A stretch of 64,000 nt of DNA from Tubulanus polymorphus (lineage: Eukaryota; Nemertea; Palaeonemertea; Tubulaniformes; Tubulanidae), in assembly GCF_964204645.1 (NCBI RefSeq), contig NC_134026.1, positions 15,580,650 to 15,644,649 on the forward strand. Direction: 5' to 3'. Within the stretch, counting starts at the first letter, position 1; every line of letters begins with the position of its first letter. The notes below the pieces were generated by a model. The model ran no database searches. It was given only the letters and a program-made list of their open reading frames with translations, and was not told the origin of the DNA. Below are positions 8,384 to 51,212 of this stretch, piece after piece. Made by a program: the position numbers and the translations under genes.

Positions 8384-8387
8384 TTAA
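8384..8387. repeat. TTAA target-site duplication, left
   Basis: TTAA directly precedes the terminal inverted repeat and is matched by TTAA at 14039-14042. TTAA duplication is characteristic of the Kolobok and piggyBac superfamilies. Confidence 0.95.
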
Positions 8388-8406
8388 AGGGTAACTGACA
8401 CTTTTT
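8388..8406 (+). repeat. Left terminal inverted repeat
   Basis: AGGGTAACTGACACTTTTT exactly matches the complement of 14020-14038. Beyond 19 bp the two ends diverge, apart from general AT richness. Confidence 0.95.
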
Positions 8407-8671
8407 TTTTTATTTCAAAATTCGATAAGTTCTATCGAACTAAGGAAGACTTTGAAATAGTTCTGTTCAAAAATGTGTAGTTTCCGCTAAAATCGTGATT
8501 TTATAAGACAATTTTTGACCTCATTTCGTTGTATACATCGCGTTAGAAATCATCGGCAATTTCCGTCGATCTCCGGCGCTGTGACGTCAATAAAGTGAGC
8601 ACTGAAAATTCTCTTCTATGAGATAACGTTGCGTTTTTACTACTCGGCGTGTTTTCACTGCTTTTTCTCAA

Positions 8672-11600
8672 ATGCCAAATCGTTGTGTTTGCTTTGGGTG
8701 CGATTATTCGGATAGGGGTATATTTCTTTTTCCGAAGAATCCTGTTCTTCGAGAAAAATGGGCTTCTTTTGTAGGTTTAAAGCGATTGAATTGGAGCGGC
8801 CCAACGTCGAATAGCGTCGTGTGTTACCGGCATTTTACCAACGATGATTTCGTTAATAAAATGCAGTATGATGCACAATTTGCAAAGAGGTAAGTTTCAT
8901 TCAGTCATCTTAACATTTATTCGAGACATGGTTTGAGAATAATTATTGTATGGGCTTGAAAATCACTGTTAAAAGGGTCGCATTTTCAAGTCCAATTCAA
9001 ATCAATAAAATTTATTTTTTCCACGCGCGGTATCCAATTCATAATTTTTTATGTCAAAATGCCGTTTAACTTTTGTTTGCTAAGCGTGATTGTAAAACCA
9101 TGCCTTCTAGGTCAGCTTACATCGTGTGACAATAGAAACATCTTTTCATTGAACTACTACTATAGGCCACAGTGCATTGGCCATCGTACAATAGGCTTTT
9201 ATTGTCATTGTGAGTGCCTTACTTCACTCACTAACTACAATAACAAAATGAATATTTCACGAGCCTTGTGAATTAACGGTTGCCTTTTGCTTGAAATAGA
9301 TTGTTGCTGAAACAAGGAGCCGTGCCATCGATCCACACTGTGATAGAAACCCCTGAATCTACATCTCAACCAGAGGATTTCTTCTCGCCACCACGAAAGC
9401 CTGGACGAAAAGTGTTTGAGAAGAGGGAGAGACGGCGAGTCATTGCTGAGACTGAGAGCCAGGTTTTGCATAATCTTCAACCAAATTTGGTTGAAGATTA
9501 TGCAAAACCTGGTGAAGATGACGGCGGGGAAGTGTATGCGGAACCCGGTATCAAATCAGAGTTCGAGGCGACAAGAGAATTTGCTGTGCAGGCTGAACCG
9601 GATTGTAAATCTCGAGGTAGGATTTTCATGATGGTATGGTGTATCATTGTCATTCAGTTTTGAATATATCACTGTAATCATTGAATTTCATGTTATTTAA
9701 TGATAATTTTTTCTAGGGATGCAAACGCTGAAAGAAACTGCACAGGTGAAGACCAAAATTGTGTACCGCATCAAACCTAAGATTATCTACAGAACGCCAT
9801 TTAAGGCTCAGCGTTCAGTTGGAATCCAGGAAAATGCATTGAGTGAGTATTCTTTATTCAGTCTATATCGTATTATGGTACGGCTTGTATTATGGGGTTT
9901 TTTATGATATCATCTATTCTCCCTATCTATTTAATCCTACTACTGTGATTGGTCTGTTTTAGCCCGAAACATTGGTATTCAATGTAAGCGACCTGCTGAA
10001 GAACTTACAAATACCTCAAAAGCCATTTGTATTGGAGAAGAATCAGATTTAGGGAGTGACAGTGAAGATGATGACTATCATCCAGATTCGGCAGAAGAGT
10101 CAGAGATGGACAGTGGCTCTGAGGATGATTCTGAAGGCAGAGTTATGTTTGAAGAAATGAGGTTAGTAAAGTATAATATTTTAATCATGAATGATATTTT
10201 CCTTTCTTTTGTATAAAACTTCATTTATCATTGCAGTGATGAATCGGATAAGTCGTATAAAGACCAAACCAAGATTATTGTGTTCCAGTCAGCAATTCTG
10301 CAGCTGTTACAATACTGCCGGCGCTGTGGAAGAGAGAACCAAGTTTGGAAGAGGCACAGAGGAACAATGTTGACTGTCAGAACAAATTGTTTGAATTGTG
10401 GTGAAACTACTGAATGGTCCAGCCAACCAACAGTTGCTCGAGGAATTCCTATATTGGATGTTTTATTAAGTGCCATGGTTCTTTTAACAGGAAGTTTGCC
10501 CACAAAAGTTTTTCGACTGTTCAAGTAAGTTGCAGTAAAAACAATACTTTCAGTCTAATCAAACATAATTTTTTAAAGTTATAAATGTAATGGTCAATCC
10601 AATTTCAGTTTCATGAATATAAAGGCTCAGAGTACCAGGACATATTTCCGGTACCAGAAAAACTATCTTCACGATGCTGTTTCATCTGTGTGGGAAGCAA
10701 GTAGATCGGCACTTGTCAACAAATTACCAGGGCCACGATTGCTTGCTGGTGATGGACGTTGCGATTCTATGGGTCATTCTGCTAAATTTGGAAGTTACAC
10801 TCTGATGGATTTAATAACTAACAAAGTGATCGCGTTTCAACTTGTTCAGGTATGTCAGAACCATAAAATCTTGCTTTTTCCTGAATTTAAAACAGAGAAA
10901 GGTTTACGTCTATCTTTGTTATTGATTTTTTTAGTCGAATGAGGTAAAGAATTCAAATGCAATGGAATTGGAAGGCTTAAAGCGTTGCCGAATACAGATA
11001 GGAAACCTGAAAGTGATGGCATTTATTTCGGATATGCACATTCAAATTACTAAATGGACAAGGGAAGTTTGGAATGTAGCTCACTATTATGACTGCTGGC
11101 ACGTTGTTAAAAGTAAGTTCAAAAATTCTTTGTGTAGAATTTACATATCACTCACGGAATCAAAAATGAGACGAAATACTAATTTTTCATTTCAAGGTAT
11201 AACTAAGAAACTAGAAATAATGTCAAGGAAAAAGGAATGTGAAGAAATCAAGGATTGGATAAAGTCAATAAAATGTCATTTGTACTGGTGCACTGCATCA
11301 TCATCACCCGGGGATAAAGAAGGCATCAGTAAAAAATGGTCATCAGCAGTCAAACACATCCAAGACAATCATGAAGACTGCAGCCATGAACCCATAACAT
11401 CAGAAAAGAAATGGCTTTATCCAGGTAAGATATTATCTATTGCAACTACTGAATCAGAAATTATATCTAATTTCATGTGATGAAACATTTGATGTACTAT
11501 TTACAGGATCTTTGGTTGGTGATTCTATGCAAAAATATCTGACGAATACACGGGTTATAAATAAAGTGAAGATGATGTCACCATACGGCCAGACCAGTAA

Positions 11601-12167
11601 ACTGGAGTGTCTTCACAGTTTATTCAATCATTTTGCCCCGAAGATGATTCAGTTTTCTTACAATGGAATGACAAGCAGGTAAGCAAAGTATATAACAATT
11701 GAGTGATTTCTATTTTTTTCATACATATGTCCCTGCTAAGACTTATATCAATGTCTTATGTCTTCTCTTAGGTTACAAATAGCTGCCCTACATTTCAATG
11801 AGAATAGTGACAGAATACAAGGCACAAAGATTGATGGGACAAAAAAATATAGCATTGTCTATCCAAAATACAAGGACACCCACACATTAGGAAAACTACT
11901 CACTGATGCCACTTATGGTGAATATTAAAGTCATTAACTAAACTTATGTAAATAATTCATTACCAAACACATTGTTGGCTAACAGTGTTTTTTATTTCAG
12001 AATATGTCGACATTTGCTGGAACAAGATACTCCAGGACGTGGAAGAAGCAGATAGGCCGAGGAAAATAATCACAGTACCACCAAATCTCACATCAAACAA
12101 AGAAAAAATCACCAAAGAGGAAGCCATCGCAATGCACAGGACAAGATTCAAAAAAACTAATAGATGA
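8672..12167 (+). CDS. THAP-domain Kolobok-type transposase, 11 exons, 759 residues
   Basis: Exons read from GT-AG borders with matching phases are 8672-8889, 9300-9616, 9717-9842, 9963-10161, 10237-10524, 10609-10849, 10935-11112, 11197-11424, 11507-11678, 11772-11917 and 12001-12167. Together they make 2280 bases including the stop. Residues 1-80 are a THAP zinc finger for DNA binding: C5/C10, then VVCYRHF (C51, H54), with the AVPSI box after intron 1. Residues about 224-286 are acidic. A zinc-ribbon-like pair of CxxC motifs follows at 314-341. The catalytic region shows GDGRCDSMGH (D431), ISDMH (D496) and LECLHS (E632). I infer these three acidic residues as the DDE triad by position and conservation style. 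The start is the only ATG before the THAP cysteines. The product should act in the nucleus on the TIRs. The gene runs toward the ballast-domain gene, leaving about 700 bp between their stops. Confidence 0.9.
9459..9512. repeat. 54-bp perfect palindrome inside transposase exon 2
   Basis: The sequence from CCAGGTTTTGCATAATC to its mirror GATTATGCAAAACCTGG is perfectly self-complementary over 54 bases, with no spacer (centre AAATTT at 9483-9488). It lies in frame and encodes part of the linker after the THAP domain (HNLQPNLVEDYAKP). Confidence 0.97.
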
Positions 12168-12300
12168 TTGAATGGTAAGTCTCTTGACATTTGTATTGAA
12201 GGTATAATTTCATTTAAAATTGTAATACATGCACATGAAAACATTATTATTTTGAAAACATTATTATTATATTGATTTTCTTAAAAAATACATTCTTTTT

Positions 12301-12525
12301 AGGTCTGCGGAAAAAATGATGACCCGAAGTGATGATTTAATTCGAAAAATAATGTACGAAGAAATATATTTGAAATTTGGCAGTTCAAAGATACCGAGTA
12401 CGTTTTATTTCAACATCAGGAATCATGATATATCTTGTATTCGTTTTATAATTCAACCTAAAATATTTTTCATGTCTTTTTCAGGTGATAAAGACAAAAT
12501 ATCTACATTTGCATGGGAAGATTAA
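12301..12525 (+). other. Two candidate extra exons downstream of the transposase stop
   Basis: After the stop at 12165-12167 a GTAAGT donor lies at about 12175. It is followed by an acceptor ending at 12302 and an open segment (about 12303-12400), then a donor GTACGT, then an acceptor CAG at about 12482-12484 and an open end stopping at 12525. If spliced, the two open segments join in phase and end in DKDKISTFAWED. They could be 3'UTR exons, an alternative C terminus or a small separate ORF. No upstream exon joins them in frame to the transposase without crossing the stop. Confidence 0.35.
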
Positions 12526-12734
12526 TGGTGAAACTACAAGTCTAAGTGAAAGTTGTAGACACCAGTTCACTCAATAAATGATCTGTAGAAAATTGATAGG
12601 AAACTGAAAATAAAATTATTGATCTGCTTAAGCATAACAAAACTGCTCCTTACTTGAACAATTAATTGCGATCAGATGTTTAAATTAGAACTCAATGGAT
12701 TGAAAGCAAAACGTTTTATACATTATAAATATGC

Positions 12735-12740
12735 AATAAA
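12735..12740 (+). terminator. Poly(A) signal candidate for the transposase gene
   Basis: AATAAA lies within 'gcaataaaattt', followed by AT-rich sequence. Another AATAAA occurs at about 12610. On the opposite strand, AATAAA read from 'ttttatt' near 12773-12778 can serve the convergent ballast-domain gene. The two 3' ends may therefore overlap slightly. Confidence 0.5.
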
Positions 12741-12863
12741 ATTTATATTTTATATCTAAGCGATGTCATTGTTTTATTAAAATATCTGTAAGAAAAGCAC
12801 AAGTTAAGAAGAATATATAAACATCGTTAGAATTTTTAAGTTGAATTCTTCTATTTTAATTCA

Positions 12864-13813
12864 TTATGGTCCATCAATCGACACATTACGAAATCCTTTA
12901 TATACATGGTCCTCCTCATAACCGTCCTCAGGGAAATGTGCGCGGATGCACGAAACGACACAAGCAGGCAAAATTCTCCTATTCTCCTTGCCCAAATATC
13001 CCCAACACCACCGAACAAATGATCTGTATGCTACATGTCTTAATTTCGCATTTGCTGGCCCTTCAAAACTTTTCCGTCCGTACTGCCGTTTAAATTCGGT
13101 CCACATCAGCTGCAGGACCCAAGGGTTCAAACAGATCGAAGCGAAAGCTGCTGTGTCCGTCATGCAGGTCTCTTCATTTTGTCCGGACTCCTCCCAAACC
13201 CATTCCAGTCTTCTTTTCACGACATCAATCTCCATACAGCACACACACTCTTGCTCCGTCTCTAAGATCTGACAGTGTCCACATTGGCACCTAAAAAGAT
13301 TATCCATAAAAATATTTTTAAGGTATGGATATAGGTATCTACTTGTTGTAAGCCTATGCTGATGCAATGCAGTGCAAGAATAGTCCAGCAGTGCCAGCAC
13401 AACGACGTTGAATCGCACTGAGCTTTTGAAACGAACATGATAAGATTCTCTCAACTTCGCCAACAAAGCTCAAAAACCTATAATTAAATCTACGGCTTAA
13501 TGAATCTTAAAATATATATTTTTAAGTTAATTGTTATATGAACATACCACTGATTCAGATTATCCAGCTCCAAACGGTTTATTCGGCCTTCGTCGTCGTC
13601 TCCCTCTGCCTCCGGTCTGGGTCCATCGCCGTTTCGCTTCGGTTCTGCCTCTGGTTCGTATAAATACGGCCCGATCATTAATTCCTCTTCGTCACTTGTT
13701 TCCTGCCATTCAAAATCACTAAGCGATTCATCTGAATTTGATGCCGAAGTGGCATTAAATTCAGATGAATCGCTCCCATTGTCCGATTCTCTATTCATTT
13801 CTATAGACGCCAT
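12864..13813 (-). CDS. P2X7 C-terminal (ballast)-domain protein, 2 exons, 230 residues
   Basis: Exon 1 is 13813-13548 and exon 2 is 13290-12864. The GT-AG intron splits the codon for W89, and joining gives WCQCGHC in frame. Residues 1-50 are acidic and serine-rich. YLYEPEAEP (50-58) followed by the cysteine cluster C90, C92, C95, C104, C106, C107 is the hallmark of the zinc-binding cytosolic ballast domain of the P2X7 receptor C terminus. Invertebrate genomes carry that domain in many proteins without a P2X channel. The C-terminal half continues the family pattern (RHVAYRSFVRWCWGYLG, then ending near HVYKGFRNVSIDGP). There is no membrane channel here. As the second gene of the transposon it may be an accessory or DNA-interacting factor, but that role is inferred from position only. 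The start is the first ATG, and a second ATG at codon 6 is also possible. Confidence 0.85.
13722..13774. repeat. Near-perfect 24-bp-arm palindrome in exon 1 of the ballast gene
   Basis: Arms 13722-13745 and 13751-13774 pair at 23 of 24 positions, with a 5-base loop (GAAGT). The sequence lies in the coding part for the acidic N terminus (about residues 14-30). It parallels the 54-bp palindrome in the other gene of the same transposon. Confidence 0.93.
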
Positions 13814-14019
13814 TATTGAGTCGCTGCCTTTAATGACGTAGTTCTATAAATAGCCCGCAGTACACGTGTTTTTCCGGAACGATGTAAACAAAACGAGGCG
13901 CGCGAAAATCAAAATCATCAAATATCATTATAAATTGAAATTTTTTCCGATCTTTCAAATTGTCAATCTCAATAGTATACTATAATGAATCATTTTATTC
14001 CAAAAGTAGAAAATTCTTG

Positions 14020-14038
14020 AAAAAGTGTCAGTTACCCT
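14020..14038 (-). repeat. Right terminal inverted repeat
   Basis: This is the exact complement of 8388-8406 and is followed directly by the second TTAA. Confidence 0.95.
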
Positions 14039-14042
14039 TTAA
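14039..14042. repeat. TTAA target-site duplication, right
   Basis: TTAA directly follows the right terminal inverted repeat and matches the TTAA at 8384-8387. Confidence 0.95.
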
Positions 14043-18143: not shown

Positions 18144-19961
18144 TTATAAGGAAAAAAAATTACTTGTGGTGATGAGTGGTGTCTCGCCCTCTCGCCCTCT
18201 GATCTGAAACCCACATCTTCCAATTACTGCCATACGCCAGTGTATTCGCTTCTTGCTGTCCTCGTGCACTAAAACAATGTCGCCAGTTTTTATTTTGTTT
18301 TCGAGTTTCCCGTTGAGTTTCGCACGTTCTCTGAGCGCTATCAAGTATCCACGGCTCCAACGTCGTTTGAACGAACTCAAAAGTTCTTGCAACGTTTGAT
18401 TACGGCGTCGAATATCGGTATACGAAACGTTAAAGTCCTGATCATTAAGATCAATGTCCTCATACGGCAACAGAGTTAATTGGCGACCGCATAACAGTTG
18501 TGACGGAGACAACGGAAGAGGCTCGTCTTCCGTACTATACACATACGTGAGAGGTCGATCGTTGATCGTAGCCTCAATTTCACACAAGAGAGTTCGTAAT
18601 TCATCGTCCGTGACGATGCTTCTACCGAGAATCTTTCTGAGGCATTCTTTCGTTACGCCTATCATCCTTTCCCAGAATCCCCCGAACCAAGGGACTCGTT
18701 TGGGAATGAATGTCCATCTTATTCGATTGTTCGCCATATATCTCGCGACGATCGGCGAATTGACGATTTCTTCTATCTCTACGCAAGATTTTAGAAAGTA
18801 TGACCCGTTGTCACTGATCAGTTCATGCGGTAACGATCTACGCGAAACGAATCTCCGGAATGCTCGAATAAACGCGGCAGGTGTCATATTAATGACTGAT
18901 TCGAAATGGACTGCTCGCGTGGTGGCGCATGTAAACAGACAAATGTAACGGTTATGGCGCTTGTCAGACGTGCCTCTGACCCAAATTTCGCCGGAATAAT
19001 CTACTCCGGTAACAGTAAAGGGCGGAGCATCCGTAACGCGCGAAACTGGAAGTGGCGGTGGTATAGGTGTACAGTAGGCGGAGCCTCGTACTATAGCGCA
19101 CGTAACACATTTCCTGAGAACTGATTTTACGACTTGTCTAATTTTCGGTATCCAGTATCTTTGCCTGATAGCAGTAACAGTCCCGCCAATTCTTAAATGT
19201 TTACACCTCCTGTGGTGAAACAACACGATCAAACGCGTAATATGGTGATCTGGTAATAGAATGGGAAATTTGGCATCGTACGGTAAAGACGAATTTTGTA
19301 CACGACTGCCGCATCGAATAAGTCCCCTGTCATCGATAAAGATTTTCAGTTGTTTGACCAGGTTACCGCGTTTGAGTTTCTGGACTGTCAATTGATTCAA
19401 TTCAGATTTAAAGTATGTTTTCTGTAAGTCCATGACCCATTTGTTTTCTGCTGTTTTTATCTCATCGGCGGTGAGTTCCCCGCTAACCCGATCGGCCGGA
19501 TTCCTCAGATTATGTAAATATCTGAGGAAATAAGCGGTAACACGCACGAGTTCGGTCAACGATCCATATTTTTCCGGATCAATGATCTTTAAGATACCCG
19601 CTTTTTCTAACTGTTCATGTTGTATCGACATGGTAGTCTCGTCGACAGATTCATCAGTTTTAATTTCGTTATCGGCTTGAAATCGCGAGACTGGCCAATC
19701 GCCGACTTTCAACCAGTCGGGCCCGTGCCACCATAGTGTTGAATTGGCCAGTCGATGAGTGGTTATACCGCGTGTTAGTAGATCCGCTGGATTATCTTGG
19801 GTCGGTACGTTATTCAATTCCACATCGAGATTGTCTAGCTTCAAGTAATTTATCTCGTGCACCCGATTTTGAACTAAACACGCAAGTCGTTTTTCACTCC
19901 TAGTCCAACTTAGGACTATCTCGATATCGGACCCGATAATCGCTTTGCTGAAATGTAGCAT
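18144..19961 (-). pseudogene. Pao/BEL RNase H end and integrase (605 codons open)
   Basis: The open frame includes the end of RNase H, the conserved linker (YFLRYLHNLRNP), the H2C2 zinc finger (FHHRRCKHLRIGGTVTAI, CVTCAI), the integrase core with VTGVDYSG, LISDNGSYF and GGFWERMIG (the D, D and E residues), and the DUF5641 domain start (GDIVLVHED). After WRMAVI the expected C-terminal pattern stops and unrelated sequence shared with 1186-1260 follows. The integrase core itself looks intact. Confidence 0.8.
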
Positions 19962-20016
19962 GGCTTGAGCGCATCGAATGAATATTTGATCAAACGGGCG
20001 CCGACGACGGCGGCCA

Positions 20017-21096
20017 TTAGCTCGAGGCGCGGTAACGAGAGCTGTTTAACGGGTGCAACTCTGTTTTCGCTATGACAAGCGCGATGTTTTTCCCTTGACG
20101 TAGATAAACGGTGGCTCCGTAGCCACGTGAACTCGCGTCCACAAAGCAATGTAACTCAGTATCGGTATCCTCCGACGGCGCAGAAAAATACTTCCGGTTA
20201 ATCGTTATTTTTCTCGCATTTTGTAGATCGCGGTACAAAGTTTTCCAGTTATTGCTCATCTCGTCTGGTAATAATTCATCCCACGAGACATTCGCTTTCC
20301 ATAATTCTTGGATGAATATTTTGATTTGATGTGAACCGGCGATAACGGATCATAGAGACTCGCCACGCTCTGACGATTTCGCGCTTCGTAATAATTTCTG
20401 GTTCGCTATGCTCGATCGCTTGTTTGTATTTAAGCCTGTCCTGATTGACATCCCATAGGAGTCCTAGGTTGCTGACAACGTCATGCCCGTTCAATAAGTT
20501 GTCTTTACTCGCAATATGTCTGAGGTTTTCGTTGTTACTAGTCCATTCACATAGTTTAAATCCTGCGTCGGACATCATCCGATTCGCGTTATGGTAATAA
20601 TCGATCGCTGTCGATTCGTCTTTCACCGACGTAACGACGTTGTCTACGTATATGCTCGATTTCATATCGTTAGCTACCGTGCAAATGTGTCCAAATGTGA
20701 TTTTATGACGGCATTGAGAATAAACGGCGAGCACGCTGCTCCGAATAATACAGATTTAAATTGATACGTAATGAATTCGCTTTCGGGGTCGTTTGGATCG
20801 CTTAGCCAGAAAAATTTCGTGAATTTCCGGTCTGGCTCGGCTAGGCCCACTTGAAGGAAGGCCTTTTCGATGTTGCTACTAAGTCCAACGTCGCATGTAC
20901 GAAAGTTCATCAAGATCGAACCAAGATCGTTAAGCAGTAGCGGTCCTTTTTCCAGGCAGTCATTTAAACTCGGAGACTGACGCGTACGGAAGCTACAATC
21001 GTAGACGACGCGGATTGGTGTTGTGTTCACCGAGTGGTACCGGTATATAATGACCTTCGGATTCGTTTTCCTCGTGGATCGTCTCGATGAATCCAC
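20017..21096 (-). pseudogene. Pao/BEL reverse transcriptase and RNase H, frameshifted
   Basis: IRVVYDCSFRT and LNDCLEKGP mark the fingers and the first catalytic region. FKSVLFGAACSPF is the palm motif, and IYVDNVVTS carries the YVDN form of the active site that is typical of Pao/BEL. LGLLWD and HCFVDASSRGYGA (RNase H start with its aspartate) follow. At least three frames are needed to read the whole. Confidence 0.8.
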
Positions 21097-22230
21097 GCGC
21101 TATTTGATCTTCGATAATTCGATCATAGATTTTTCGGGTATCGTTATTTAGTTTCCTGACCATCGCTCGCGTTCGGTTGGCTGTGTTCAGTCTATTGGTC
21201 GGTAATGGAGGGTGTTCCGGCCTCCATGGTAGCTGCGCAACGTATTGGTTTCCCGCCATTTCGATACAATCCGTCGCATAATGTTCAAACGTAAGTTCTT
21301 CGTTTATCGGGTGTTTTATCCCGAGTGTTTCGACTCTCTCGAAGTTTTTGAGTTGGTCTCGTTCATGAGTATCATCGGTGAGGATAAAGTTCGCGTAGTC
21401 ACGACGGTCGTGACTCGAGTTTTTTAGCGGACCCGAAAGAAGATAACCGAGTTTTGACGCAACCGCTGTGGGGCCGTTGCCCCTGACGACTTTGTCCTCA
21501 ACTAAGGACCAGTAGTAGTCGGATCCAATTAATAGAGCGATTTCGAACGATTCACGACCGCTTACAGGGTGCGCCAGTTTCAGACCCGATAGATAATGTA
21601 AATTACGTGTATCTTTGATGTGATTACTCATAGGTGTCGTAATGTTCGATTTTACGAGTGCGCTTATCGGCACGTCTCCAGTTTCGGTTTTAATGGCTAA
21701 CTTGACCCGGTCGTATTTCCTTTGTTTAGATTTAGTATCTCCAAAGATCGAAAGATTCAGTATTTCGCTCGACTCCGGTTTCAAGTTTAATTTCACGGCT
21801 GTTTCCTCCGTGATCCATGTTCGGGTCAAGCCTTCATCAAACAATATGTTGACGGTCTCGGAGTTTTGATGTTTTTCATCAGTAATTTCAGCAACAGCTG
21901 TCTTTAAGACGACTGGCGTCGATACGGTGATTGAGTCTTGTGAATTTAGCACGCCGATGTACATTTGCCTGTCATCGCATTGCGGGTTCTGATCGTTATG
22001 ACCAGCTGATTGTGGTTTTTTGCCGCATAGAGATGTATGGTGTTTATCTGAACATACGGAACAGCAATAGCGTGACCTGCAATCTCTGGCTTTGTGATTT
22101 TTTCTCAAACAATTTCGGCAGAGATTTCCTCTTTTCACTATATCCATCCGTTTTTCCAGAGTGTTATAGATCAGACAATCCCTTGATTTGTGGTCTTTCT
22201 TGCAGTACTTACATTGAATTTTATAATTAC
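20993..22230 (-). pseudogene. Pao/BEL nucleocapsid and aspartic protease
   Basis: The zinc knuckles are visible as CRNCLRKNHKARDC and CCSVCSDKHHTSLC. The protease region starts ILFDEGLTRTWITEE. The catalytic triplet reads D-E-G instead of the D-S/T-G of most retroviral proteases, a variant I believe is tolerated in this branch of Pao/BEL. The frame then continues to the conserved YLLSGPL and to the N-terminal linker of the reverse transcriptase (GFIETI, HYIPVP), where it shifts. Confidence 0.8.
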
Positions 22231-22233
22231 GGT

Positions 22234-23280
22234 CTAGACGGCTTGTTTGATTTCGTTTTCTGTGATGAATAACGACGTGTTTGTGATTTCGTCTTCTGGA
22301 TCGCTGATGAGCACACTTTGAATGGCTTGTCCTGCCAGACCCGCTTGAATCTCTTTCTGAAACGCTTTCTTCAATTCAGTTAAATTCCATGCTGAATCAC
22401 CATGGTCGCGTGTGATCTGAGTTTTAATTCCCGATGGGAGTTTCTCGAATATGACTGGAATCAGGAGATCCCCATAGCTTTCCTCGGTCTTACCGAGAGA
22501 TTTTAGACTCCTGATATAGCCTTCCAGTTCATCGTAGAACTTTTTCATCTGTTGTACATTTTCGCGTGGTTTTGGCAATTCCCACAATGCCTTCATATAA
22601 ACGTCGATCAATTTATGAGTTTGTCCGTACCTGTTTTTCAAGAGTTCAATGGCTTCGACGTAGTTGTTATTGGTCAGTGATAAGCCCTCGACGCATCGGG
22701 CCGCTTCTCCGCTGAGTTGCGCACGAAGATACTGGAATTTTTGGATGTCGTCTAATCCGGTATCGTTGTGGATAGCTGATTCGAATGCATCTATAAAGCC
22801 GATCCATTATAGTAAATCCCCGCTGAATGTCGGTAAATGTAACTTAGGTAGATTGACTTGCCTTGATTTGTTGTTAATCGATTGATGAGTTGTCGTCGGT
22901 TTCGTGTCGTTATTGAACGTTTCAATAAAGAATCTATACTTTTGTATTTCGATAATCCGTTCGAATGCGAAATCATCTGCGTCTGCGATAGATGATTGTA
23001 GATTTTCATCAGGCGTCAACGAGAGAATTGTTTGATCTAGTTCTTGTATGAGGTTTAGCTTTGTGACCGCTGATGATATGATTGCTACCAGATCTTGAAC
23101 TTCGGCTAGGCCTACTTCTGTTGATCCGGATTGTAGGCTCTGGTAGACCTCTTCTGCACGATTGAGGTATTTAGATAACTGCCCTCGGTGGGCCAACCGA
23201 GATGCTGTAGGACGCTTCGTTTGGTCCATTTCGTTTTGACGCTCAGTTGCGTCATTCGCATTTTCCGATGTCGTCAACAT
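22234..23280 (-). pseudogene. Pao/BEL gag
   Basis: ATG lies at 23278-23280, shortly after the primer-binding site. The reading passes LPKLHLPTFSGD, where a TAG at 22807-22809 replaces the residue before the conserved tryptophan, and continues in frame through WIGFIDAFESA and FEKLPSGIKTQI, typical of Pao/BEL gag (DUF1759 and DUF1758-adjacent regions). The frame ends at 22234, just before the nucleocapsid frame starts. One stop and one frame change break it. Confidence 0.8.
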
Positions 23281-23301
23281 AATCCTGGTCACGGCACCAA
23301 A

Positions 23302-23497
23302 TGTGATGGAGTGACTATCACCACAGAGAGGTGACCAGATCCGAAGGAGTAAAGTCGAAGAGCGTGTTGTATTTTGTGAATCTAAACAGCATCTAACTTT
23401 ATTACTACAGTATAGGGTTACAGTATAGTACACATGGCGCGAAACAGCAACCAATCATATAAGAGAGACATCAACGAATCATATAAGAGAACCAACA
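23302..23497 (-). repeat. Pao/BEL 5' LTR (candidate) and primer-binding site
   Basis: Read on the reverse strand, the LTR begins about TGTTGGTTC (23497), contains AATAAAG as a poly(A) signal, and ends near CACTCCATCACA (about 23302). It is followed at once by TTGGTGCCGTGACC (23287-23300), the primer-binding site typical of Pao/BEL elements. The upstream border is uncertain because no second LTR is available for comparison. Confidence 0.6.
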
Positions 23498-28537: not shown

Positions 28538-29278
28538 GCGTACTGAGTACAGGAGAATATTACAAGATATTTATACAAGACCAAAACAATAGAAGCAGAG
28601 TGAGTGATTAAAATATTGAAAGGGGAATAGATTAAAGTAATGACATAACAACTAGAAAACAATGCTAAAGTAAGCAAGGCAAACTAGGGGCAATGTAGAT
28701 TAAAGTAATTAATAAACAAAGACACAAGCTAAAGTGATTAAAACGGGAGGACAAGCTAAGGGGTAATCAAATAAAACAAAGAGAAGGAACATGAAAGGCG
28801 ATAATCAGTGAGTGAGTGGAAACAAGCAAACTATGATAAAGGCAAAACAATGGAGGGAATTAGTATAACGGGGGTACAAGAGAAGCGAGAAATTTGGAGA
28901 TCAAAATGTTGTGGGGGGAGAAACCGTTATTCAAATTAACACAATTTTCCAAGTTTTCAATAATCAGGGCCGATTCCATAATGTGTCGTTTAATCTTTTC
29001 TGAACAGGGAAAAATTATGGAGGCATTTTCAAAATCAAAATTGTGGCTGGTTTCGTATACGTGATTGGCAACACCGCTTTCAGGCTTAAAATTCTTTACA
29101 TCATTCTTATGTTCACGAATGCGCTTGTGTAAATCGCGTCCGGTTTCGCCGATATATATTTTGTTACAAACTTTACAGGGAATTTTATATACACCAATGT
29201 TCAGGGGTTCAATTTTGGGGGAGTTATGAGTAAGATTACGACTAAGTTTGTTGTTATAAGTAAAAATGAGTTGTTTGT

Positions 29279-29815
29279 TTAAGAGATGGAGGGGAGTTTT
29301 AGATTTTTCCAGAAAAGGAACGAAAGGTACAATAATAGGCTGTTTACGCGCGCGGTCCCTTGAGAGTGACTGAAATGTGAACGACGGGCTCTCAAGAGAG
29401 CTTTATTCAAAATGTCGTCGGGGTAAGCTAATTTATTAAGAGAGGTCTTGATCTGGGTTAGTTCATCATCCAAGAAAAGGGGGTCACAAATCCTTAATGC
29501 GCGAAGGAATAAGCTTTGGGCAACACTAAGTTTAATGTTATGAGCGGTGAAGGAGAAATAATGTAGGTATGTTCCAGAGTGGGTAGGTTTCCTATAAACC
29601 GAGAATTTTAGACAAGACAAACAATTGTGTATACAAACATCAAGGAAAGGGATTTTCCCATCAACTTCCAATTCAAATGTGAAGTTCAAGGAGGGATAAA
29701 AAGAGTTAATAAATTTGGATTTTAATAATTGGAGCCCATAGATATAAGGTAGGGAGGGTAGACGTGATTGAAATTTCGAAAGAATATCTTTAGAGTCCGG
29801 AAACCGTTGGAACAT
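29279..29815 (-). pseudogene. Penelope-like RT C-terminal part, left copy
   Basis: The frame starts inside the reverse transcriptase (5' truncated) and shows FELEVDGKIPFLDV and FSVYRKPTHSGTYLHYFS, hallmarks of the Penelope RT thumb. A 1-bp loss in a GC run (ACCGCGCGCG here, ACCCGCGCGCG in the other copy), about 29352-29362, shifts the frame. The GIY-YIG part (about 29070-29170) therefore lies in another frame. Confidence 0.85.
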
Positions 29816-29819
29816 ACCT

Positions 29820-30536
29820 GGAACATACCTACATTATTTCTCCTTCACCGCTCATAACATTAAACTTAGTGTTGCCCAAAGCTTATTCCTTCGCGCATTA
29901 AGGATTTGTGACCCCCTTTTCTTGGATGATGAACTAACCCAGATCAAGACCTCTCTTAATAAATTAGCTTACCCCGACGACATTTTGAATAAAGCTCTCT
30001 TGAGAGCCCGTCGTTCACATTTCAGTCACTCTCAAGGGACCCGCGCGCGTAAACAGCCTATTATTGTACCTTTTGTTCCTTTTCTGGAAAAATCTAAAAC
30101 TCCCCTCCATCTCTTAAACAAACAACTCATTTTTACTTATAACAACAAACTTAGTCGTAATCTTACTCATAACTCCCCCAAAATTGAACCCCTGAACATT
30201 GGTGTATATAAAATTCCCTGTAAAGTTTGTAACAAAATATATATCGGCGAAACCGGACGCGATTTACACAAGCGCATTCGTGAACATAAGAATGATGTAA
30301 AGAATTTTAAGCCTGAAAGCGGTGTTGCCAATCACGTATACGAAACCAGCCACAATTTTGATTTTGAAAATGCCTCCATAATTTTCCCCTGTTCAGAAAA
30401 GATTAAACGACACATTATGGAATCGGCCCTGATTATTGAAAACTTGGAAAATTGTGTTAATTTGAATAACGGTTTCTCCCCCCACAACATTTTGATCTCC
30501 AAATTTCTCGCTTCTCTTGTACCCCCGTTATACTAA
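29820..30536 (+). pseudogene. Penelope-like RT end and GIY-YIG endonuclease, right copy
   Basis: The frame is open from the junction at 29820 (GTYLHYFSF) through the RT-nuclease linker to the GIY-YIG domain: IGVYKIPC, CNKIYIGETGRDLHKRIREH and a later E in HIMESALI. This nuclease domain is typical of Penelope-like elements. The stop is at 30534-30536. It is 5' truncated, so no RT catalytic motif is present, but the nuclease domain itself has no visible break. Confidence 0.85.
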
Positions 30537-32928: not shown

Positions 32929-34508
32929 TTCGATGTCGCTCGAGTCCGGGTAACCGATTATTGTTCGAAATTTGCCGTGTCTCCGGTTAAAACAAGAAAC
33001 GATGCGTTGAATATGCCGAAAATTCCGATGCCGAAATTCTCGGGGAAAATCGATGATTATTTAGCGTTTCGAAGTGACTGGCAAAGAATAGTCGAGCCTC
33101 GATACAGAATCGCCGATGATGTTTTGTATTTACTGCGAAATGCTTTAGAAAACACAAACCCGGCTTATAACGCGCGCAAGTGGATAGATGGCGTATTCGA
33201 ATATGCAGAAGCATGGGCGAAACTGGATCAAGTTTACGGAAATCCACGTGAAACTAGCGATTTTGTTATTGGTGAACTGGAAAAGTTAAAATCGCTGGGT
33301 GAGAATGAATTTTCAAGGTTTGTAGAGCTGTTCCATAGGCTGAAATGATAATGTCCGAAATGGAACGAAAAGAAGATCTCGACAATTCAACGACGTCAGG
33401 GGTTCTTGAACGGAAACTGTGTAATAGTGATAAATTGAAATGGGCAGAATGTCAGCTCCGAGATCAAATCAGTCCGAATATCGATACGTTCTTGAATTGG
33501 ATGTGGAACCAGATTCAGATACACATAATTGCTGGAGCCGATATTCGTAGTTCGACAAACGTAAAGAAGGGTTCAATATTAGCCGTAGAAGTGGACAGTG
33601 GGTCAAGTACCGCTGCGAGAAATACCATGAACAATACTCAAGTTTTTCCGGGCTCTACAAAAACGCCTTCGTGGCGTCCGCGACCGGAGGGTGCTCAGGG
33701 AAAGTACTATGTTGCGTCGTGTTGGTATTGTAAAGGGGAACACAAAGTAGATGACTGTCAGCGTTTCAAGTCATTGTCGTCGAATGACCGTTTGAAGGAA
33801 GTACGTCGTGTTCATGCATGTTATTTTTGTCTGTGTAGACATAAACCCCCATGTCGTGCGCGAAGGGTAAAATGTCCTGAACCTGCATGTCGATATTCAC
33901 ATCATATTCTGTTACATGGAGCAAACTTCGAGAAGACTTCGGGAACCGAAAACGACCCTGGTCAGACAGTAAGCGGAACGGTCGGAAATTGTCGAAATCA
34001 AAAAGGAGAATGTCTACTACCGATTTTGCCAGTAGTGGTAGCAAATAAACGCGTGCGCTGCCTCCTAGATAGTGGATCACAGTTAACACTAATTCGTCAA
34101 GATTTGGCTGAAGAGTTGGATTTAGACGAAATTGAAGTGGAGATTGTCACGGTTGGAGATTCGGTACAAAAATTAAAAACGAAACTATACGAAATTGAAA
34201 TTTCAGCAATCTCCGGAGATAAAAGTCGTAAAATTGAAGCGATTGGCTTTCCGAAAATCTGTGAAAATTTGTATCGTGTTGACAAAGCGGAAATATGCGA
34301 TTTGTTTATGATTCAGTCGGAAGATATTGATACTGAACCTGGTTCGGTTGACATTTTAATCGGCGTCGACAATATCGAATTTCATACTGGTTTTATAATT
34401 GACAAGGGTGATTATGGTTTGCGTGAAACAATATTCGGTCCTGTAGTGTTTGGTCGTTCTGATAAAGAAGATAAACGTTGTAGTCCGGGAAAAGTAATTT
34501 TGACTTAA
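32929..34508 (+). pseudogene. Pao/BEL gag (DUF1759), zinc knuckles and protease
   Basis: MPKIPMPKFSGKIDDYLAF opens the DUF1759 gag core. The frame stops at 33346-33348 and is continued from about 33345 in a second frame. There follow CWYCKGEHKVDDC, CYFCLCRHKPPC and a further Cys/His group (nucleocapsid), then CLLDSGSQLTLI with the D-S-G protease triad, then VDILIGVDN. It stops at 34506-34508. One frameshift is needed. Confidence 0.8.
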
Positions 34509-34526
34509 TTACACGACCCTACAGAC

Positions 34527-36490
34527 ATGTCGAGATTCTGGGAAACCGAAGAAATGGGTGTTTGTTTGAACTGGTGCTGTCAAGAAAGACAACTGGGCGA
34601 AAAAATCAAAACTGCGATCGAAGGTAAAAGAAGAATTAGAGATTCGTTCGTCCGCCATTCGAATCGGAAATCGGTGGCAAATTCCGTTACCGTGGAAAAA
34701 GGATCCAAATCAGCTACCAGATAATTATTATCAAGCGTTTGCGAAATTGCGCGGTTTGGAACAACGATTGCAGAAATCCCCGAAATTGGCTGAGATTTAT
34801 AATGAGCAAGTTGAGCAATTAGTGAAGTCCGGTTCGGCAAAGAAAATGACGGCTGAAGAAATCGAAAATTATCGTGGGCCTGTTCATTATATGAGTCACC
34901 ATGCTGTAGTTCGACCAGATAAACCAACTCATCGGTGCCGTATGGTTTTCAATCAAGCTGAGAACTATAGAGGTCATGTGATAAATGATTATTTGAGTAA
35001 ATGCGGCGATCATCTCAACAATTTACTCGGAGTGTTGATTCGCTGGCGTGAAAGAGAGTATGTATTGGTCCGAGATGTCAAAAAGATGTACCATCAAGTT
35101 CTCGTTAGCCCAGGTATCGATACTCAAACGCATCGATTCTTGTGGCGAAATTATGAGTCGAATCGAGATCCAGATATTTACGTCAAGATGGTCTTAACAT
35201 TTGGAGATGTATCGTCACCAGCTCTCGCAAATATTGCAATGGATATGACTGCGGATCAATATAAAACACAGTATCCAGATGCCGTCGCAACGATTAAGCG
35301 ATGTCGATATATGGATGACATCGCAGATAGTGTGAATACCGTTTTCGATTTAGAAAAGCGAAGATGTGAGATCGATAAAATTTTGGAATCGGGACATTTC
35401 CAGATCAAGCATTGGTTCTCGAATGCACAATTATCGGGCCGGGAGGATGAAGACAACAATGAAGACAACAACGTTGAGAAAGTGCTCGTCATTTGGTATC
35501 AAGACGAGGATAAGATCTCAATTCATATGTCTATACCATCCAGTGTCACACTACCTCTCACAAAACGATGTATAACAGCGATTATATCAGGAATTTATGA
35601 TGTATTCGGATTTGGTGCGCCTGTCATTGTTAAAGGGAAAATCGGACTGCAGGAATTATGGCGAGAAAATCTTGATTGGGATCAACCGATACCAGAGAAG
35701 ATGCAAGACAAATGGTTAAGATGGATCGAGGAAATTCGTAAGCTTGAAACACGGAAGTTTGCTCGATGTTTAACTCCGGCAAATGCGGCGTCGGATCCAG
35801 ACCTTGTCATTTTCTGTGATGCATCAAATGTCGCTTTCGGGAGTGTTTGCATATTTACGTTGGATATGTGGAGATGGAAAGGTGGAGATAAAGTTTGCGT
35901 TGGCGAAGTCGAGGATTGCACCTATTCGTACGATAAGTCTTCCACGAAAAGAACTACAATCATTGGTATTGGGCTGTAGAATTTATGAGACTATCAAGGT
36001 TGAATCGAGACTTGAGATCAAGAACGTTTACATTTTTACTGATTCGATGATTGCTTACTCGTGGATTCAGAATGACTCGCGGGTATATAAAACATTTGTT
36101 GCGAATAGGATCGGAGAAATTCTGTCTAAAACTGAGCGTAGTCATTACGGCCATTGTCCGTCGACTGAGAATGTGGCCGATGATATTAGCCGTGGAATCA
36201 ATGAAGCCGATTTAGATGTTCGCTGGGTTGGTGGGCCAGAATTTCTGCGTCAACTGAAAGATGTATGGCCAGTGTCGTATCCTACCGAAACAACCGAGAT
36301 AGATGATTCCGAACAAAAACTAGGGTGCGTTATGGTCACAAAACCAAGATTCGAGATAAGTGCGTTGCAGAAAGTTAGCACGTTGAATCGTCTGATACGC
36401 CTCGTTGCAATGGTTCTTCGATTTGTGAAAAATTTGCAGGCGAGAGTTCGGTATAAGTGTGGTAGCCAGTATTTTCATTGCAGCTATTAG
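34527..36490 (+). pseudogene. Pao/BEL reverse transcriptase and RNase H
   Basis: From 34747 the frame shows CRMVFNQAENYRGH, LVRDVKKMYHQV (first catalytic D), LTFGDVSSPALAN and RYMDDIADS (YMDD active site), then LVIFCDASNVAFGSV (RNase H). A frame change near 35930 leads to the frame ending 36490, with VYIFTDSMIAYSWI and HCPSTENVADDISRG. The reverse-transcriptase active site is intact, but the reading needs at least two frames. Confidence 0.85.
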
Positions 36491-37185
36491 CTCAACTTGC
36501 TTCATGGTTGTATTGTGCTGCCCTCTGAGGAACACCTGATATCAGCTGACCAGATCAGTTTTGCCTGGTCATTGTGAGAATCAGGTTGATGTAATAAACT
36601 TCATGATCATATGGTTCATGCTCGTTTTGTTATTTAATATTCAGGTAAGATCATAATCTTCTTGAATTTATTATGAATATATGTCTGTGATTTTGTGGTG
36701 CATGTGAGCTGAGGGTTCCTGGGATAATTTTGGGAATTATTTATATTGAATTATATGCATTTTTCTACTTGATCTGAAACTCCCGGGTTATGCTGGATCG
36801 TACTGGTAGGTGGAGACATTGTCTGTTAATTTGTATGAATTGTTGTTATCATTGATGTCTGTGTGTTCTAGGTTTAAGTTTATATAAATAAGTAACAGAT
36901 TATAATATCAAATGCAAAGTGTTTTATCTAGTCAGTAGAAGAAATTAAATGTTGATTAAATGTGAATGAATAAATTATTAATGTCGGTGTAAATAGCAGA
37001 TGAGTTTTTGCCTGGTCATTGTGAGAATCAGGTTGATGTAATAAACTTCATGATCATATGGTTCATGCTCGTTTTGTTATTTAATATTCAGGTTGTTTTC
37101 CCGGATGGTGAGCAGTCAACTGTGAGGATTTTGTCGCTGTTTCTTCGAGAAATCCAGTCGTCGAGGCCTCTTTAATCAGTAACCC
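36455..37185 (+). other. Non-Pao sequence between RNase H and integrase, with 86-bp direct repeats
   Basis: The polyprotein pattern stops after KNLQARV and resumes at 37190. The intervening stretch contains an 86-bp direct repeat ('ttgcctggtcattgtgag...' at 36561-36646 and 37008-37093) with copies 447 bp apart. This fits an inserted element with short direct ends, or a local duplication. I do not recognise the element. Confidence 0.5.
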
Positions 37186-37189
37186 GCGC

Positions 37190-37600
37190 ATGCCTTTTTT
37201 GCGGTTACGACATAAGAAAGAACAAATTCAAACGGGAGAAGTTACTGCCAAAATATTAAAGTGCGCGAAAAGCACAATCGTGAAATTGGCGCAAACCAAA
37301 GTTAGAAATCGGAAATATGAAGTGGAATTTCGGAAATTATCGCCGTTTGTAGATTCTGCAGGGATTATCCGAGTGGGAGGTCGACTTGGAAACGCTGATG
37401 TAGCTTATGATCAGAAACATCCCGTTCTATTACCAAAGGATCATTTCATATCGAAACTTATCGTGGAACATCAGCATCGATATGGTCATCCTGGAGTTGC
37501 AGCGACTACCGCGAAGGTCCGACGAGGATTCTGGATAATCGGGTTGAATCGGTTAGCTGAATCGGTTAGCTAAATCGGTAGTGCGCAGTTGTTTTATATG
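37190..37600 (+). pseudogene. Pao/BEL integrase zinc domain, truncated
   Basis: DSAGIIRVGGRL, HPVLLPKDHFISKLIVEHQH, YGHPGVAATTAK and FWIIGLN are the linker and histidine half of the H2C2 finger. A short repeat ('atcggttagct' twice and a third partial) at 37549-37580 shifts the frame. The cysteine half survives only as SCFICW in another frame, and no core follows. Confidence 0.8.
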
Positions 37601-39440: not shown

Positions 39441-39822
39441 TCGTATATCACTAATATTGTAATAATTCAACTGCAAATAGTCTTTTTTCAAATAGATTTT
39501 TGCGATTTTCCTTTTTGATAAAGCATATAGTGCGCCTTCATTCAAGGAAAGCTTTAACGGAAACAAATCTTCCACAGAAAGGAATCAATTACTCAGTATA
39601 TATTATTAGCTAAGTTAGCTATTGTTGTCTCGGAGACACTCTGGTACTATTATGCTGCTAGTAGTTGACACCGTGTCAACGTTTCACAAAACACTTACTA
39701 CAAGTGTTTATTGTTTATTTTTCATCTAATCAATCAATTTTTCGTTCATATTTATCATCCTGTATCCATTTACAATATAATTTTTCTATATATATACATA
39801 TATATTTTTTTTCTCTTGTATT

Positions 39823-42669
39823 ATGTGTCTTGGTAATGCAGATTTTTTAAAAAAATTTGTTAGTCATGCGAATGATCAAGATTTATACCTGCATAGTATA
39901 ATAGATGATCAATTGTCATTTGATAATGAACGATGTCCCTATGTTGAACTTAATGAACTTGGTAGCAAATTTAAGATTAATCCATCAAACTTAAATGTCC
40001 TACAAATCAATATTCATAGTCTTACGTGTAAATTACAAGAACTGAAAGTAATTATCGATAATTTAGCGAAGCAAATTATAATTCTAGATATCATCATGAT
40101 CTGTGAAACCTTCATAAATGACAAAAATGCTTTATTATGTAAAATCCCTGGATATCAACTTGTTGAAAACCATAGGCTCAATACTACTGGTGGGGGTGTT
40201 GCTATATATATTAATAATAATATAAATTTTATAAATAGACCTGACCTTGATATTTTTCAGGAAGGTAAATTTGAATCATGTTTTGTCGAATTGAATTTGA
40301 ATCGTAATCTAAGTAAGAAAATAATTGTTGGAGAAATTTATCGAGTTCCAGGCAATAGTGAAATTGATTTCCTAGACAATTATGAAAACCTAATCTCGAA
40401 ACTAAATGAAGAAAAATCTGAAGTAATTCTTGGAATGGACCAAAATTTAGATTACATTAAGATAAATACACATAAAAATACCTCAAAATTTCTAGATATG
40501 AACCTGGCAAATAACCTATGTCCAACAATACTGCGGCCAACAAGAGTTACGCACACAACTGCAACGCTTATCGATAATGTTTATTTATCTCAGAGGTTGG
40601 AAACTAAACACAGTAGTGCTATTATATTGACTCATATATCAGATCACTTACCTTGCTTTGTCACTATAGAGTGTAAAAAATCACAATCATCAAAGGAAGA
40701 ATATTTTTCAAGAAATCTGAATAATAGTAATATTGAACGGATGAATAAAAAGCTTTCTGATTTAGACTGGTCTCATGTAGAAAGGCTTAATTGCAATGAT
40801 TGCTATGATTTCATCACAGCTAAGATTACAGCAGTGGTAAACGACGTTTCCCCAGAATTTAAAACTAATAGGAAAAGAAAATTAATTGAACCATGGATGA
40901 CAAAATCTATTCTGAAATCTTCTACGAAAGCTGATAAAATGTTTAAAAAAGTCATGGAACTAGATAAATCGGATGAACGATACAGAAAATACAAACTTTA
41001 CCGTAACCAGCTAAATTATTTAAAAAGACACCAGAAACTGAAATTTTATACTCAGAAAATAGCTACATACAGTAAAGATAGCCGAAAACTATGGTCTACC
41101 ATTCGTGAATTAATTGGGAAATCCAATGACAAAACTTCCACCACCAATATTTTTGTTATCGATGGCAAAGAAACTAGTGACAAATTTACAATAAGTAAAG
41201 GTTTCAATAAATTTTTCTCAACTATTGGTAAAAATTATGCGGAAAAAGTTCCTAAATCTAGGAATGATTTCACCAAGTATCTTCCTAAAAAAAATGAAAA
41301 TGTTATATTTCTTTGTCATACAAACAGTGAAGAGATATATACAATAATTAATAACTTATCACCTAAAAACAGCTGTGGCGGGGACGATAATTTAAGTAAT
41401 AAGTTATTAAAACAAATTGTAATGAGCATTATTGGACCCCTCACTATTCTTTTCAATAAATCACTCCAGGAAGGCGTATTTCCTGATAACATGAAAATAG
41501 CTAAAGTAACTCCCTTATTCAAAAATGGGAACAAAAAAATATTAACAAATTATTGACCTATATCATTACTCCCTGTTTTATCTAAGGTCCTTGAAAAACT
41601 TGTTCACTCACGACTCTATAGTTTCCTAACAAAATATGGTATCCTAAATCCTAGCCAATATGGCTTTAGGCCATCGCATTCTACAACGCATGCTATAACA
41701 GAATTTATAGGAAATCTAATTATAAATTTAGAAAAAAAACAGAAATCATTGGGTCTTTTTTTAGATCTATCTAAAGCTTTTGATTCTATTAGTATTGATA
41801 CTCTTTTAGTAAAACTAGATCATTATGGTATTAGAGGTCATGCCTACACTTGGTTTAAAAGTTAATTTAAAGATCTAAAAATTTTTACTAAATTTAATCA
41901 AACAAGTTCGAATCAGGATGATATATCGTATGGAATACCTCAAGGTTCGGTGCTAGGCCCTCTTCTTTTCCTGATTTATGTAAATGATCTGAACAACAAT
42001 TTAACCTTTACACAGGCGATTTCTTTTGCGGATGACACAAACCTGTTGATTACTAACAAAGACATTAATTGTCTGATCGAAGGCTTCAGAAAAGATGGTA
42101 CGACTGTAATTGATTGGTTTCACTCTAATAAGCTAACTTTAAATATAGATAAAACTAAATGCATACTTTTTATGCCAAAGAAAGAAACAATACAAAAGGA
42201 GCATATCAATATCCCTTTTGGATCTGAAGCGTTAAAACTATCTGTAATTTGTAAATTTTTAGGATTACAGATTGATGAAAACCTTACCTGGGAGCCACAT
42301 GTTAAACAACTATATTCTACCTAGTTTGAGTAAAAAACTTATTTACAATAGTTATATACATAGCCATCTTGTGTATGCCCTTATTGTATGGGGACCTATG
42401 CTAACAGTCAAACAATCTAACTCTATTTTCAAAATTCAAAAGAGAGCGGTTAGACTAATTAATAATTCTATAATGCACCAACAGGGCCAATATTAAAGAA
42501 ATATAGTATATTGAAATTCCAAGACCTTATAGAATTAGATCTACTGAAATTTGGATTCTGTCATCTTCATAAATTGCTTCCACAGCGAGTACTAAACCTT
42601 TTCAACATAAATGCTGAATTCCACAATTACAATACCCGTAGTCGCAATTTTACAAGAGTTAATGGTTAA
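39823..42669 (+). pseudogene. LINE ORF2: endonuclease and reverse transcriptase
   Basis: The endonuclease shows LNVLQINIHSL, MICETFIND, TGGGVAIYIN, VILGMDQNLD and HISDHLPCFV. The RT shows LVHSRLYSFL, QYGFRPSHSTTHA, GLFLDLSKAFDSI, YGIPQGSVLGPLLF and SFADDTNLL. TGA (41554) replaces the Trp of the NYWPISLL motif, and TAA (41863) follows WFKS. Near 42290-42310 the frame changes, and about 30 residues of the usual linker before NYILPSLSKKLIYN are missing. The C terminus ends at about 42669 (NTRSRNF). It is dead. Confidence 0.85.
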
Positions 42670-49070: not shown

Positions 49071-49892
49071 CCCCTTGATCGCCTGTACCGATATAGTCGG
49101 TATCACCGTTTCTCCCCGGAATGTCGGTACCGATATTGTCGGTATTTATGTATATGGGATTCGACCTGCCTTTGCAAGGTCTACTGTGTATCGAATAACA
49201 TTACGCATATATAGGTACCGTAGTAAACATTCACGTACTTGAAATGGAAGCAATTTCATGAATTTGCTGGTGTTTTGATGACAAGGGATACAATCTATGT
49301 GTATGAGTGAGATTCTCATGGCTAATCGTAGACCTAAACGGTATGATCTTGCAGCTGTTGTTGATCAAATAAACGATGATGATTTTAGTTATTCAAGCGG
49401 AAATGAAAGTGAAAATGCCAATTTCCATGATGGCAGTGATCAGGATGTTGTCAGTGACAGTGATAATACTGATGATGGGGCCTTACAGGATGCAGAAGAT
49501 GACGAATCTAGCGCCGTCGGTTTCTGCTATGGATTCGGATCATAGTGATGATAATGGCACTGCCAGCGAATCTGAAGGTATGTACACATCAACTCTCAAC
49601 ATAAATAATGTCAGTGTCACATTTCAGTGTGAATTATTGCTCGAGGCCTACTTTACGGTACCTATAATTTCTTTGTATTCCTCCGTGTTTTCGTTTTCGA
49701 GTACGGTCTTGAAGTTATAGGCAAAATTCTCATGAATTTCTGGTTATTTATTTTTCAGGAGCTGTAAGCCTACCTAGTAGTCAAGATTCTGATGACGACA
49801 ATGGAGCTAGCGATAGATCAGCTGTTCGTGGTAATATCGGTGGAGACCATGGACGAGGCGGACGCGGACGAGCACGTGGTGGACGCATCGTT

Positions 49893-50000
49893 GCTCGTGG
49901 TCGTGGCCAAGCTCGAGGCCGTGGTCGTGGCCAAGCTCGAGACCGTGGTCGTGGCCAAGCTCGAGGCCATGGTCGTGGCCAAGCTCGAGGCCGTGGTGGA
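49893..50000 (+). repeat. 24-bp coding minisatellite (Arg-Gly-rich)
   Basis: CGTGGTCGTGGCCAAGCTCG plus four more bases repeats about four times in frame, giving RGRGQARG units. Confidence 0.9.
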
Positions 50001-51207
50001 CATGCTCGTGGTGTAGCTGGTGTTCGAGGAAGAAATCGTCATCAACCTCATCAACCACCGCTAATAGAATGGAAAAGAGACCCACAGGTAACTCACTCGT
50101 TTCCATTTAGAGGACAACATGGTCCAAATTTCCGATTACCAAATGATGCTACAGAATGGGATTTTTTGAAACTGTTCCTTACCGATGAACTAATTGATAT
50201 TGTGGTGAGAGAAACAAATCGGTATGGAAATGAGAGAAAAATAACCACGCCTGCTAATAAAAAATATGCACGTATGCATATGTGGAAACCGATTGATCGT
50301 GAGACTATGTGGCGCTTTTTGACAATGGTAATAATGTTTGGATTGGTAGAAAAACCAGTAGTTGATTCATATTGGTCAACAGACAGTCTTCTGGAAACAC
50401 CAGGATTTGGGCAAATTATGAGTAGGAATCGCACACAAATCTTGTGTGCGATACATTTTCAGAATAATAATATTCCACGACCAGAGGGTGAGCGTGCATG
50501 GAAGATCAAACCGTTTTTTTATTATCTTACTGCCCGTTTCACACGCATGTACACCCCTGAACAGTGTGTGTCAATAGATGAAGCTCTTTTGCTATGGAAG
50601 GGCAGGCTGATATTCAAGCAGTACATACCCAAAAAGCGATCACGTTTCGGACTAAAGTCGTATGAGCTGTGCGAAAGTAGCACTGGGTACTGTTGGAAAT
50701 ACAGGTTATATACCGGACAAGATCACATTGCAAATCAAGCGTCTGTGCATGGTGTTTCTTATGATGTTGTCATGGATTTGATGGATGGTTTGCTTGATCA
50801 GGGATACAAATTGACGGTAGATAATTTCTACACGAGCCCTGTTCTTTTTCTGGAGTTATATCAACGTGCGACTCATGCTATCGGTACTGTTCGGTTTGAT
50901 CGAAAACACATGCCCAAAGATCTGACGTATCGTTATGATGCTAATGGGGTACAAATTCCCTTGGTGAAAGGAGACATTACACATAGAAGCTCAGACAAAC
51001 TGTTAGCACTCTGTTGGTTAGACAAAAAGTATGATTCAATGTTATCTAACTATCATGATGAACATATCGTTGATACTGGGAAAGTCAACCGCACCACTCA
51101 AGAGCCAATACGCAAGCCACATGTAATTGTCGAATACAATCATCAAATGGGAGGCGTAGATCTCAAGGAACAAATGCTTGAAGCTTATGCTATGCATCGT
51201 AAAACAA

Positions 51208-51212
51208 TCAAA
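51208..51212. repeat. Target duplication (TCA or TCAAA), left
   Basis: TCAAA precedes CGCAGTCTC and is found again at 58186-58190 after CTGTGTT. The exact length (3 or 5 bp) is ambiguous because the terminus may begin with AA. Confidence 0.65.

Follow-up and report, generated by a model that had tools for sequence, protein, structure and literature searches.

Structure of the element and its two genes

The window, by which we mean the whole 64,000-nucleotide stretch of Tubulanus polymorphus DNA that was analysed, contains at positions 8388-14038 a complete transposon of 5,651 bp. It carries two convergent genes, one for a transposase on the forward strand and the other for a protein with a P2X7-type ballast domain on the reverse strand. 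The features are as follows.

8384..8387, no strand: TTAA target-site duplication, left (from the sequence)
8388..8406, + strand: 19-bp terminal inverted repeat, left, AGGGTAACTGACACTTTTT, 100% complementary to 14020-14038 and common to other copies
8672..12167, + strand: transposase gene, 11 exons, 759 aa (from splicing and open frame)
8672-8889, 9300-9616, 9717-9842, 9963-10161, 10237-10524, 10609-10849, 10935-11112, 11197-11424, 11507-11678, 11772-11917, 12001-12167, + strand: transposase exons
12864..13813, - strand: second gene (KolX, the ballast protein), 230 aa, exons 13813-13548 and 13290-12864, GT-AG intron, PF20478
14020..14038, - strand: 19-bp terminal inverted repeat, right, pairing with the left repeat and common to other copies
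14039..14042, no strand: TTAA target-site duplication, right (from the sequence and flank comparison of copies)

The preliminary description had reported TTAA duplications, perfect 19-bp inverted repeats and two convergent spliced genes with no defect, and all of this holds. The coordinates are exact, the inverted repeats pair at 19/19 bp (24/24 if the TTAA and one further base are counted), and there are open frames of 759 and 230 codons with GT-AG introns, including all ten introns of the transposase gene. The termini have the form 5'-AG...CT-3' (RR/YY) that is found in Kolobok elements.

The transposase has at its N-terminus (residues 5-85) a THAP domain (PF05485, E 1.5e-12, above the Pfam cut-off), which is a usual trait of Kolobok transposases (PMC6004289). 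The motifs GDGRCD, SDMH, DCWH and LEC follow each other in an order that would give the DDE plus C/DxxH signature expected of Kolobok, and they are kept in most of the related loci of the same genome. The comparison with Kolobok transposases that had been proposed for the 759-residue protein thus comes out in favour of a Kolobok-type transposase, by the Pfam match to THAP and the DDE/DxxH motifs.

The second protein is acidic at its N-terminus and has at its C-terminus a ballast domain of the P2X7 type that contains seven cysteines. A profile search of 12864-13813 against the P2X7 C-terminal family had also been proposed, and the protein matches P2RX7_C (PF20478) with E 5e-17, above the Pfam cut-off, while its C-terminal half matches P2X7 chains in PDB (E 7.6e-6 with the single sequence and 8.8e-8 with a profile). 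In Kolobok elements of the Kol0 lineage the second protein, called KolX, is reported to have the fold of the P2X7 cytoplasmic ballast (Kojima and Bao 2022, PMC9587614), and on the PF20478 and PDB matches the window element encodes such a protein. In an alignment the seven cysteines, which line up with those of P2X7, are invariant across eleven family members, and on our reading of this alignment and of PMC9587614 they would be the published zinc ligands. An AlphaFold model of the ballast exon is weak (mean pLDDT 55); its top 14 Foldseek matches are all P2X7, which for a model of such low confidence we count only as consistent with the P2X7 fold.

The window also contains further mobile elements. 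Two BEL/Pao-like retrotransposons lie at 18144-23454 (- strand) and 33339-37573 (+ strand), Penelope-like GIY-YIG frames in opposite orientation at 28860-30536, and a LINE-like endonuclease/reverse transcriptase at 39781-42324 (+ strand), the type names in these cases being partly our own reading. A piggyBac-like transposase lies at 49713-51272 (+ strand).

Sister copies and recent movement

A search of the 268-Mb host genome gave ten further near-identical copies, each of which has its two ends, is flanked left and right by TTAA and carries a ballast gene. Two of them (L016 and L017) share flanks and represent one site, so the 11 copies, window copy included, are at ten distinct sites. The family targets TTAA, with the 4-bp duplication present in 11/11 copies. 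It had been suggested that other copies with the 19-bp ends and both genes be sought, and that copies lacking the ballast gene would make this one a chance insertion; ten more were found, and every one of the 11 carries the ballast gene. The sister copies differ from the window copy at 0.24-0.43% of aligned bases, and it is for this reason that we can say that the family has moved and multiplied recently.

In the case of L010, the flanks when joined with one TTAA match at least 40 copies of a repeated host sequence over nearly their whole length and at 96-100%, with perfect empty sites among them, and the element therefore inserted cleanly at TTAA. The equivalent empty-site search for the window copy matched its own two flanks alone, that is to say its surroundings are unique.

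The transposase frame is unbroken in only one of the 11, the window copy, the others having stops or internal deletions. The ballast frame is open in 8/11; in two more the difference is confined to the final residues, and one is interrupted by a stop. Five different internal deletions were seen (in L009, L010, L013, L016/L017 and L018), all of which affect the transposase gene and leave the ballast gene untouched.

Each gene also contains an inverted repeat of its own. Within transposase exon 2 there is a perfect 54-bp palindrome with no spacer (window 9459-9512), which is unchanged in 9 of the 11 copies, and the L010 deletion starts inside it. Exon 1 of the ballast gene has a 24-bp inverted repeat (96%) with a 5-bp spacer (window 13722-13774), the left arm of which is unchanged in 10/11 copies. 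There is in addition a non-autonomous derivative of 1.44 kb at L049 (C7:12812900-12814700), which shares the 19-bp ends and the TTAA and has no recognisable gene, and similar derivatives, with ends about 73-80% alike, are common in the genome.

Ballast and transposase genes across the genome

A Pfam search found 51 ballast places in the genome, and in a first count 39 of these had a transposase piece in convergent orientation no more than 25 kb away. When places were drawn at random, uniformly along each contig, the mean number of convergent ballast places was 1.0 and the highest 7 in 2,000 placements. On closer reading loci L019 and L041-L044 were added, which brings the ballast places beside a Kolobok transposase to 44 of the 51. 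The remaining seven comprise three decayed relatives of the window family and four fragments (L040, L045, L046 and C5:14127969) for which no transposase was found in the nearby sequence searched; the first three of these fragments are candidates for decayed copies or for lone KolX genes. Looking from the other side, six of the eight transposase loci that seemed to be without a ballast gene do carry one, and none was found in the stretch examined at L050 and L052. The claim that the ballast protein is the second gene of the element is thus upheld by its presence in 11/11 copies and by the 44/51 ballast places that adjoin a Kolobok transposase, and the possibility, raised earlier, that ballast genes might occur away from TTAA elements is not what we see, as nearly all adjoin such a transposase.

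Over 23 loci, transposase and ballast distances at the protein level are correlated (Mantel r 0.86, a value reached in 0/5,000 permutations), and the transposase and ballast trees, which are without node support values, share their main clades and 8 of 20 splits. The dN/dS ratio of the ballast gene is 0.12-0.15 between diverged loci where synonymous change can be measured, whereas young copies give values of about 1 or higher, a pattern that selection during the mobile phase of the element would produce. The ballast gene is under purifying selection between families. From the linkage, the correlated distances and the dN/dS ratios together we conclude that the pair has been stably co-inherited over long times, with the ballast gene under selection.

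An end scan of the divergent loci for TTAA with an inverted repeat gave a clear second family at L030 only (TTAA, inverted repeat 17/18 bp, 4,633 bp), the other loci being cut too short or decayed. L053 (C10:7941000-7947000) has a Kolobok-like transposase piece that is distant (about 30% identity) and lies in one long open frame; the ballast gene downstream of it is just as distant. This locus may be a lineage of its own or a preserved gene.

Interpretation and relation to known systems

We interpret the window element as an autonomous cut-and-paste Kolobok DNA transposon of the Kol0 lineage with KolX as a standing part, and put the probability of this reading at about 0.92, the Kol0 assignment being by architecture and the TTAA/AGGG ends. 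It belongs to a new, recently active Kol0-type family. Neither of two KolobokP traits is present, as Pfam found no His-Me nuclease domain in either protein and the repeat search found no long direct repeat joining the element ends.

In transposition the THAP domain would bind sites near the element ends, and the DDE transposase would excise the element and insert it at TTAA. KolX may be an accessory factor of this process. It would probably be a small domain, stabilised by zinc, which joins the transposase or the end DNA in a complex or provides a link to a host factor. Its conservation makes an accessory role in transposition itself reasonably probable, and our best guess is that it serves the transposition complex as an accessory factor stabilised by zinc.

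Alternatively the target of KolX may be the host: it might blunt silencing, say, or control copy number, and be kept since it helps the element to persist. The selection on KolX that is visible between families would fit, as would the fact that KolX is open in 8/11 copies and the transposase, with a frame 3.3 times longer, in the window copy alone. That the KolX frame survives better is only a hint, however, since the sample is small and the difference is partly explained by length and by deletions mid-element, and no host target or pathway is indicated; we think an action on the host rather unlikely. More doubtful still is the reading of KolX as a factor which acts in trans, persists beyond the transposase and is selected or used independently, perhaps in control of the family or in moving non-autonomous copies, a suggestion that arises because copies with a broken transposase keep an open KolX gene. 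The accessory role remains our preference. The family is young, has many sister copies and includes one copy in which both frames are open, and it offers material for assaying the job of KolX.

The element has the ballast gene as a regular component and not as a chance passenger, and KolX is not a recently captured host gene. Ballast proteins have been reported in many animals with transposons unmentioned (PMC7016195), which would suit chance capture of a host ballast gene, or its independent insertion beside a TTAA element. But the gene lies between the same ends in 11/11 copies, most of the divergent families in the genome have it too in the same convergent layout, and its divergence goes with that of the transposase, all of which makes such an event very improbable. 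Chance insertion of the ballast gene had been considered as a candidate explanation and was ruled out on the other copies, the genome-wide linkage and the correlated distances. We give virtually no credence to a piggyBac-type element, which would likewise target TTAA and a few families of which have a protein similar to the C-terminus of KolX (Kojima and Bao, PMC9587614), as the termini are 5'-AG...CT-3' (RR/YY), the THAP domain and DxxH motif are present, and Pfam finds in the window transposase THAP alone and no piggyBac domain (DDE_Tnp_1_7) but detects the real piggyBac-like transposase elsewhere in the window at E 1e-75.

The Kolobok transposon of the window resembles Kol0 (Kolobok-1_XT; Kapitonov and Jurka; PMC9587614) in its TTAA duplications, 5'-RR/YY-3' ends, C/DxxH DDE transposase and KolX with a ballast fold. 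It differs in that the family is new and very young, the comparison being with the description of Kol0, and for the window family we describe a convergent layout of the two spliced genes. THAP-bearing, TTAA-targeting Kolobok transposases are known from Xenopus (PMC6004289), and share with ours the THAP C2CH, the DDE motifs, the TTAA target and ends starting with AGG; the AVPTIF-like box of the Xenopus THAP is AVPSIH in the window transposase. The term KolX is absent from PMC6004289.

In the case of the P2X7 ballast (PF20478; rat 6u9v) the likeness is about 25-35% identity over the domain, a W-C-x-C-x2-C start and the seven aligning cysteines, whereas the KolX protein is without the P2X channel part and differs in the region past the last cysteine. 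The idea that transposons of this kind could have been the vehicle by which the domain spread and was captured by a receptor gene is right in kind and already published: Kojima and Bao 2022 (PMC9587614) propose that P2X7 came about when a P2X4-like gene fused with KolX. In the host genome both P2X receptor genes are distant from every ballast place, and therefore no capture is visible in this genome. What our analysis contributes is genome-wide quantitative support, from linkage, correlated divergence and selection, for the published idea of a transposon origin of the P2X7 ballast domain.
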